Assembly: GCF_005877905.1 (NCBI RefSeq)
Contig: NZ_SWDV01000025.1
Span: forward strand, 62,001-126,000
Origin: Pseudomonas nicosulfuronedens
GTDB lineage: Bacteria; Pseudomonadota; Gammaproteobacteria; Pseudomonadales; Pseudomonadaceae
DNA length: 64,000 nt
Direction: 5' to 3'
Part shown: positions 11,396 through 12,073 of the stretch, piece by piece
Layout: every line of letters starts with the position of its first letter
How positions within the stretch are numbered: the stretch's first letter is position 1
The notes under the pieces: generated by a model
Told to the model about the DNA's origin: nothing
What the model saw: the letters and a program-made list of their open reading frames with translations, nothing else
The model's database searches: none
Position numbers and translations under genes: made by a program

Positions 11396-12073
11396 TCAAT
11401 GGCGCAGGCTGATCTTCAGCGACGCCTGGGACAGGTCGATGTTCTGCAGGCTGAGGCTGCCCATGCTCTGTGTCTTGGGCGCTCCGGCGACGCGAATGTT
11501 GTCGAAGCGTACCTCGCCGATGGAGCTGGGCAGGCGCACGTTGATCGAGCCATCCGGGTTCAGGGACGAGGAGGCGTGCGCGGTGTCGTACTGCACGTCA
11601 TGCAGCGAGGTCTCGGCATCGAGGCTGTCGACCACCGGCATCACCAGTCGCGACAGTTGCTTGATGGCGCCAACGCCATCGCCGCTCTCGGCGCTGACCA
11701 GCAGGCTCTGCAGGGTGTCATCGAAACCCTGGGCGCTGACGTCGCTCATCTCGCGGTCGCTCAGCGGCTTCAAACCCTTTGGCGCTTCGTGGCGGGTGAT
11801 GCTCGTCGGCGCCTGGCGCTGCACGTCGGCGCTGGCCAGTTGGAACGGGCTGAGCAGGGCGGCGACCAGTGTTGCCGCGAGGCGCAGGTTGTTCTGCTTC
11901 TTCAGCGCGCGGCCGAGTTGGCGCTCGCTGATCCAGCCCTGCTGGATCAGGGTTTCGCCCAGACGCAGTCCGTTGGTGAGCTGGAGCTGGATGGCCTTGT
12001 CCAGCTGGTGGGAAGTGATCAGGCCCTTGCTGACAAGGATCTGGCCGAGGCGGGAGTTCTGTTGACTAGGCAT
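11396..12073 (-). CDS. Tandem MshEN c-di-GMP-binding motif protein with one membrane segment and a putative periplasmic C-domain
   Basis: The protein is 225 residues from ATG 12073 (MPSQQNSRLG); the frame is open 13 codons further upstream. Residues 8-31 and 37-60 are two 24-residue motifs of the form RLGxx[LI]xxxGxIxxxxLxxAxxxQ separated by five residues. This is the exact arrangement reported for the c-di-GMP-binding MshEN (GspE N-terminal) domain. A hydrophobic segment follows (about 65-82, ending ASA). The remaining ~140 residues carry LSDREMSDVSAQGF (about 104-117), similar to the short motif of DUF6160/FilA-like envelope proteins, and a beta-rich tail. No ATPase domain is present. The function is unknown; a transmembrane c-di-GMP sensor is an inference. 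Confidence 0.72.
   Translation of the reverse strand: MPSQQNSRLGQILVSKGLITSHQLDKAIQLQLTNGLRLGETLIQQGWISERQLGRALKKQNNLRLAATLVAALLSPFQLASADVQRQAPTSITRHEAPKGLKPLSDREMSDVSAQGFDDTLQSLLVSAESGDGVGAIKQLSRLVMPVVDSLDAETSLHDVQYDTAHASSSLNPDGSINVRLPSSIGEVRFDNIRVAGAPKTQSMGSLSLQNIDLSQASLKISLRH

Follow-up and report, generated by a model that had tools for sequence, protein, structure and literature searches.

A predicted exported FilA-type protein of Pseudomonas with an MshEN-type c-di-GMP receptor ahead of its putative signal sequence

Gene architecture and genomic context

In the window, the whole stretch of 64,000 nucleotides of Pseudomonas nicosulfuronedens DNA that was analyzed, the gene under study encodes a protein with three consecutive parts: a pair of MshEN motifs, a hydrophobic segment and a C-terminal part of 143 residues that is predicted to be exported (Table 1). 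It lies between an acyl-CoA thioesterase-like gene on one side and a Na+/H+ antiporter-like gene on the other, names that we take to be right from resemblance and gene order. A scan for sites at the gene found a single promoter-like match, upstream of it, and did not find a terminator, and a search of PHROGs with the whole protein gave a single match, with an E-value of 0.35.

Table 1. Features of the gene and of the protein that it encodes, with the evidence for each
Feature	Coordinates	Strand	Basis
Whole gene (225 aa and stop)	11396..12073	minus	ORF translation; PA3740 orthologue
24-residue MshEN motif 1, residues 8-31	11981..12052	minus	Translation, NF053729 match, conservation
24-residue MshEN motif 2, residues 37-60	11894..11965	minus	Translation, NF053729 match, conservation
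MshEN-type c-di-GMP receptor (predicted), residues 8-60	11894..12052	minus	NF053729, E 3.5e-19; AlphaFold helices
Sec-type signal sequence (predicted), residues 61-82	11828..11893	minus	Alignment, site counts, comparison with L122
Exported domain (predicted), residues 83-225, distant relative of short DUF6160 (FilA-type) proteins	11399..11827	minus	hhalign 95.2%, shuffle control
FilA-type motif LSDREMSDVSAQG, residues 104-116	11726..11764	minus	Translation, conservation
C-terminal conserved block LPSSIGEVRFDNIRVAG...GSLSLQNIDLSQASLKISL, residues 181-223	11405..11533	minus	Conservation, profile alignment

Relatives of the gene are encoded at 63 named loci, including one with the exported domain only (L122) and one with a broken remnant (L121); the copies in Pseudomonas sp. 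21 (L060) and P. nitroreducens TX1 (L061) are, after rounding, 100% identical. The motif residues, whose conservation the preliminary description had left to be checked, are mostly invariant or at least 90% conserved across 39 aligned proteins. Relatives at so many loci, together with this conservation, place the architecture beyond chance.

The wider gene order is strongly retained: across 55 loci of at least 12 kb, trmD, rplS and dsbC are found at 54 each, rimM, xerD and hom at 53 each, and ffh at 51. The closest flanks are less constant at these same loci, with the thioesterase present in 37 and the antiporter in 26. By the order around rplS, xerD, dsbC and hom, combined with sequence similarity, the gene is the orthologue of PA3740 of P. 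aeruginosa; the copy in P. aeruginosa strain PA7 (L098) is 69% identical and is set among ffh, rimM, trmD, rplS, the thioesterase, the antiporter, xerD, dsbC and hom. That the PAO1 orthologue bears the name PA3740 is our assumption from its numbering and from the published PA3740 binding peptide LKKALKKQTNLR, which corresponds to LGRALKKQNNLR in the protein studied here. In 19 neighborhoods of other genomes (L131-L149) that were examined for a conserved operon, common neighbors recur only among a few related genomes; the commonest adjoining one, seen in six, is thioredoxin-reductase-like (Pyr_redox_2) in the three cases that were scanned.

An MshEN-type receptor at the N-terminus

The N-terminal part is matched along all 53 positions of the NCBIfam model NF053729 (c-di-GMP_motif, MshE-related) and scores 68.3 bits, where the cut-off is 38. 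This bears out the earlier claim of two 24-residue motifs separated by a spacer of five residues, the arrangement known from MshEN domains. By eye, the sole departure from the consensus given in the passages found of one study (PMC5013675) is Ile28 for Leu in motif 1 and Trp47 for L/V/I in motif 2. Among solved chains, phmmer matches PilF (6f8l) at 3e-13 and MshE (5htl) at 5e-8. The Pfam MshEN model PF05157, which is 90 positions long, recognizes three further proteins encoded in this genome and fails to match the present one even at an E-value of 10.

The AlphaFold model, of which only the MshEN part is usable (mean pLDDT of the whole protein 49.3), is helical over residues 11-60, with block pLDDT values of 68-84. 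Past residue 66 neither Pfam nor NCBIfam gives an ATPase match, so the protein is no assembly ATPase of the T2SS/T4P kind, and the absence of an ATPase noted in the preliminary description holds.

Distant relationship of the exported domain to DUF6160 proteins

The predicted exported domain has 17 invariant columns in 41 sequences; its structure model is poor. An hhalign comparison of a profile of 65 such domains with one of 20 short DUF6160 proteins aligned 117 columns at 95.2% with a score of 47.4, and a repeat gave 94.6% and 49.2. In 58 trials with a column-shuffled DUF6160 profile, the highest values were 8.8% and 23.1. When the N-terminal motif was removed, the match remained at 90.2%, so the relationship does not depend on that short motif alone. 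A part of about 140 residues with a DUF6160/FilA-like motif, as had been proposed for this gene, is therefore upheld by the profile-profile comparison.

Single-sequence searches stop short of the families themselves. The DUF6160 model PF19657 scores 14 bits against a cut-off of 27 (E-value 0.064), a search of the window's own genome with the DUF6160 model at an E-value of 1 or better did not recover the gene, and the protein is unlisted for the NCBIfam FilA model NF050077 up to an E-value of 10. The FilA model itself matches three DUF6160-type proteins encoded in this genome, weakly and below its cut-off. As the family cut-offs are not reached, the domain is, on this profile evidence, a distant end-to-end relative of the short DUF6160 (FilA-type) proteins and not a filed member. 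The profile check that the preliminary description had suggested was accordingly divided in its outcome, with NF053729 well above its cut-off, PF05157 silent and DUF6160 below threshold; assignment of the protein to families by Pfam alone was dropped, PF05157 and PF19657 both failing for it. In passages of two papers (PMC3498257; PMC11784438), FilA is a component of the Fil fimbria of Acinetobacter sp. Tol 5.

The hydrophobic segment: signal sequence or anchor

Immediately after the MshEN motifs, where the preliminary description had placed it, stands a hydrophobic core of about residues 65-79. It is preceded by the invariant Arg64, includes the invariant Pro76 and is followed by Ala80-Ser-Ala82 at the predicted cut, with Ala strictly at both 80 and 82 in 38 of 40 Pseudomonadaceae copies. 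We scored a small-x-Ala site, allowed at +20 to +25 after the last MshEN residue, and found it in all 40 Pseudomonadaceae MshEN copies, every one at +22. Among 42 copies from other families, 36 have it, at positions +20 to +24. The remaining six are all first copies in tandem MshEN arrangements and have no hydrophobic segment next to them; hence the site is present in all 76 counted copies that border one, 20-24 residues past the MshEN end. Shuffling the region 1000 times gave means of 12.3 and 15.3 and maxima of 23 and 24 for the two sets. Three further copies, followed by fewer than 30 residues, were left uncounted: two are cut by contig ends, and the third, in the shortened frame L254, has no such site. 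The segment has the positive charge, the hydrophobic core and the small residues at -3 and -1 of a Sec type I signal, as judged by simple rules rather than by a trained predictor.

Homologs with the exported domain and no MshEN part point the same way. One of these, from Noviherbaspirillum, outside the window's order (L122:5908-6372), has a signal-peptide-like start, MTACRRQYTYRLAALLAATMLAPLHASA, which matches RLAATLVAALLSPFQLASA of the protein studied here. Another locus (L131:7690-9873) has three consecutive genes with the exported domain, of which the first has MshEN before the signal and the second and third, its paralogs, have signal-peptide-like starts (by eye and simple rules). The hydrophobic segment thus has the look of a Sec signal sequence more than of a simple anchor, and it may be cut, since it combines type I features with a match to the segment that opens an MshEN-less homolog.

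The main rival to this reading, and the one favored in the preliminary description, is an uncut signal anchor, which differs mainly in the cut at Ala82. The protein would then be placed N-in/C-out, and its c-di-GMP state would be passed to a periplasmic FilA-type domain regulating a DUF6160 structure. The segment could indeed span the membrane, a low-confidence model has a single helix from residue 50 to 86, and the same homology and the co-occurrence described below apply to an anchored protein as well. However, a small-x-Ala site at a near-fixed distance in the 76 bordering copies, including those with tails that lack the FilA motif, is needless for a mere anchor, and the matching segment of the Noviherbaspirillum protein looks like an ordinary N-terminal signal peptide. 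We therefore regard the uncut anchor as a possibility to be entertained, at clearly less than even odds. Of the tether proposed earlier, the hydrophobic segment stands and its persistence as an anchor is doubtful; the term membrane-tethered is only partly supported because the cleavage is putative and the gating is something we infer, as we do the partner structure.

Phyletic association with DUF6160 genes

We compared the distribution of the gene (match with an E-value below 1e-60) with that of DUF6160 genes (E-value of 0.001 or better) in 298 Pseudomonadaceae genomes. The gene is present in 55 and DUF6160 genes in 58; both occur in 55, the gene alone in none, DUF6160 alone in three and neither in 240. 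In other words, DUF6160 genes accompany the gene in 55/55 genomes and are found in 3/243 without it, with a phi of 0.97 as against 0.30 for the adjacent antiporter, which served as a control. Across 390 genomes of the window's order, 56 have a match: 34 with the full FilA-type form (assigned by match coordinates), 17 with other MshEN-signal forms only and five with ATPase-length frames. DUF6160 was detected in all 34 of the first group and in none of the 17 of the second. These co-occurrences support the link to an envelope or fimbria-like component that had been suggested for the gene.

In P. boanensis (G086) a broken remnant of the gene (L053:4384-4617, the L121 mentioned above) is accompanied, in the genome as a whole, by a single weak DUF6160 match (E-value 1.5e-4), and so both seem to be decaying there. 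Two genomes (G032 and G175) have DUF6160 genes without the gene, the site in G175 holding the flanking genes only, and the full form is missing in 17 of the 51 DUF6160-positive genomes of the order; the gene is therefore not essential to the DUF6160 set.

Shared ancestry or ecology, with no joint work of the products, would also yield such a pattern, the genomes being related. We consider this improbable. Common descent would have to accommodate the gap in phi between the gene and its neighbor, and the joint decay in P. boanensis. On a 30-genome Ffh tree, parsimony requires eight changes for the gene and six for DUF6160, and simulated independent traits agreed at least as well as observed (28/30) in only 3/20000 runs, and in 0/5640 at comparable prevalence, a rough test, as the tree is built on a single gene, its backbone is weakly supported and the genomes were chosen by hand.

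The DUF6160 genes are not adjacent to the gene. In the window's genome three DUF6160-type genes stand in a row between three genes, presumably mksBEF-like, and another that is presumably rimI-like, and two more lie elsewhere. Seven other loci have clusters of three or four genes, coding for proteins of 310-416, 345-583 and 165-227 aa and, at five of the seven, of 774-888 aa, all with a signal-peptide-like start and then the motif at once. Inspection by eye of the first 75 residues of each neighboring product at these seven loci revealed no recognizable export machinery, secretion or usher genes. The PAO1 cluster is, we assume from its numbering, PA4679-PA4683, and a literature search returned no paper containing two of PA4679-PA4682. 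If that numbering is right, a motABmotCD mutant had lower expression of both PA3740 and PA4683, the latter adjoining the DUF6160 cluster (passages of PMC3174259).

Other proteins with an MshEN-signal unit

In other genomes, the MshEN-signal unit is also followed by tails that lack the FilA motif. Some of these are fn3-like, by weak matches (L143, L250), and others retain just the C-terminal half of the exported domain (L142, L244, L245, L147); all ten non-FilA MshEN-signal proteins that were scanned score above the c-di-GMP motif cut-off. A sample of 210 genomes across the class, that of the window among them, gave matches in 106, mostly to the MshEN part alone in ATPase-length frames; beyond the order, the sample added two more MshEN-signal proteins (L256 in G761 and L257 in G806). 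We tentatively suggest a recurrent kind of exported protein in which a c-di-GMP receptor forms the n-region of the signal sequence and the messenger gates Sec export or cleavage, FilA-type, fn3-like and short tails being alternative cargoes.

Some features of these proteins deserve separate mention. The fn3-like end of L143 comes after a proline-rich stretch and L250 likewise ends in such a domain, a possible surface adhesin layout. Fifteen proteins (L138, L139, L140, L243, L246, L247, L251-L253, L255, L256, L259-L262) have short exported tails of about 70-110 residues with a strand-like end that closes on an aromatic residue, Phe in 14 and Tyr in L247; L145 has a short tail without the aromatic end. 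Such aromatic-ended, strand-like tails resemble the C-terminal signals of outer-membrane proteins. MshEN is found in tandem before the signal in L140, L251-L253 and L255, as well as in the shortened L254, and only the second copy borders the hydrophobic segment.

Published observations on PA3740

The following statements come from those passages of the cited papers that were found. Wang et al. 2016 (PMC5013675) describe PA3740 as MshEN plus an uncharacterized domain, cite the binding motif in it and assign it to swarming motility. The source study, Duvel et al. 2016 (J Bacteriol 198:138), is known here through a citing paper and a review, and c-di-GMP-binding peptide(s) of PA3740, including the one given above, are listed in a review. 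The protein has also been placed in an alignment as one of the experimentally characterized MshEN domains (PMC9765702) and, in another account, rated only 'probably functional' in binding (PMC12943098). Thus, with a c-di-GMP-binding motif published for the orthologue, the sensor half of the protein is already known. PA3740 is up-regulated in a stringent-response mutant (PMC7122816), and its expression is lower in a motABmotCD mutant, whose swimming and phagocytosis phenotypes were not reproduced by PA14 transposon mutants of the tabulated genes, PA3740 included (PMC3174259). A link to biofilm, which we had considered, is unsupported by one published deletion test, in which PAO1 deleted for PA3740 formed no less biofilm, in one setting (PMC8335546).

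The swarming label (PMC5013675) would suit an alternative in which the exported part matters little and the MshEN part works alone in swarming, as a membrane-bound receptor of, or sink for, c-di-GMP. This is unlikely, as the exported part is so strongly conserved and the co-occurrence tracks the FilA-type form and not the other MshEN-signal forms.

Literature searches, mostly of papers outside subscription, on DUF6160, on PA3740, on MshEN (among the matches listed) and on MshEN with signal peptide and periplasm turned up no description of such an arrangement. We take the export signal, and the connection with the DUF6160 surface-protein set, to be new as far as the literature searched goes.

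Proposed function

The anatomy of the protein, its signal-sequence features, its distant homology and its co-occurrence with DUF6160 are established here. The reading that we prefer, to which we give a probability of roughly one half, is that of an exported FilA-type protein whose signal sequence bears a c-di-GMP receptor, giving the messenger a means of controlling its export or maturation. The MshEN receptor would be an enlarged n-region of a Sec signal sequence and would stay in the cytoplasm, with the hydrophobic segment starting Sec export of the C-terminal domain to the periplasm. There the exported domain would work for the set of related DUF6160 proteins that the genome encodes, and it would probably either be a subunit of a surface structure like the Fil fimbria or help to assemble one. 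Binding of c-di-GMP to the n-region would control either export or release at the Ala-x-Ala site, and the surface structure would thereby follow the cellular level of the messenger.

On this proposal the PA3740-type protein gains a likely output in its FilA-type exported domain, likely partners among the DUF6160 proteins and, in the export signal, a site at which to act. If c-di-GMP does gate the signal sequence, the messenger would act on the export of a single protein and not on transcription or a secretion ATPase.

Comparison with known systems

PA3740 is the closest of the known proteins, being the orthologue with the same MshEN domain and the corresponding binding peptide; in the passages found, accounts of it leave the rest as an uncharacterized domain and say nothing of a signal sequence or of any relation to FilA or DUF6160. 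The MshEN part of NfrB of E. coli is among the closest NCBIfam matches, but NfrB is an enzyme, a c-di-GMP-activated glycosyltransferase, unlike the present protein. The MshE/PilB-type ATPases (PDB 5htl) share the two 24-residue motifs and the five-residue spacer; in contrast to these, the present protein has no ATPase and matches only in the 53-residue motif pair, which is placed before a signal sequence. With the DUF6160 (PF19657) and FilA (NF050077) proteins it shares a signal peptide, a motif of the LSDxEM..V.AQG type, a C-terminal GSL...DLs..SLKI block and a profile-profile match of 95%. It differs from them in falling outside both family models and in having a predicted cytoplasmic c-di-GMP receptor before the signal.
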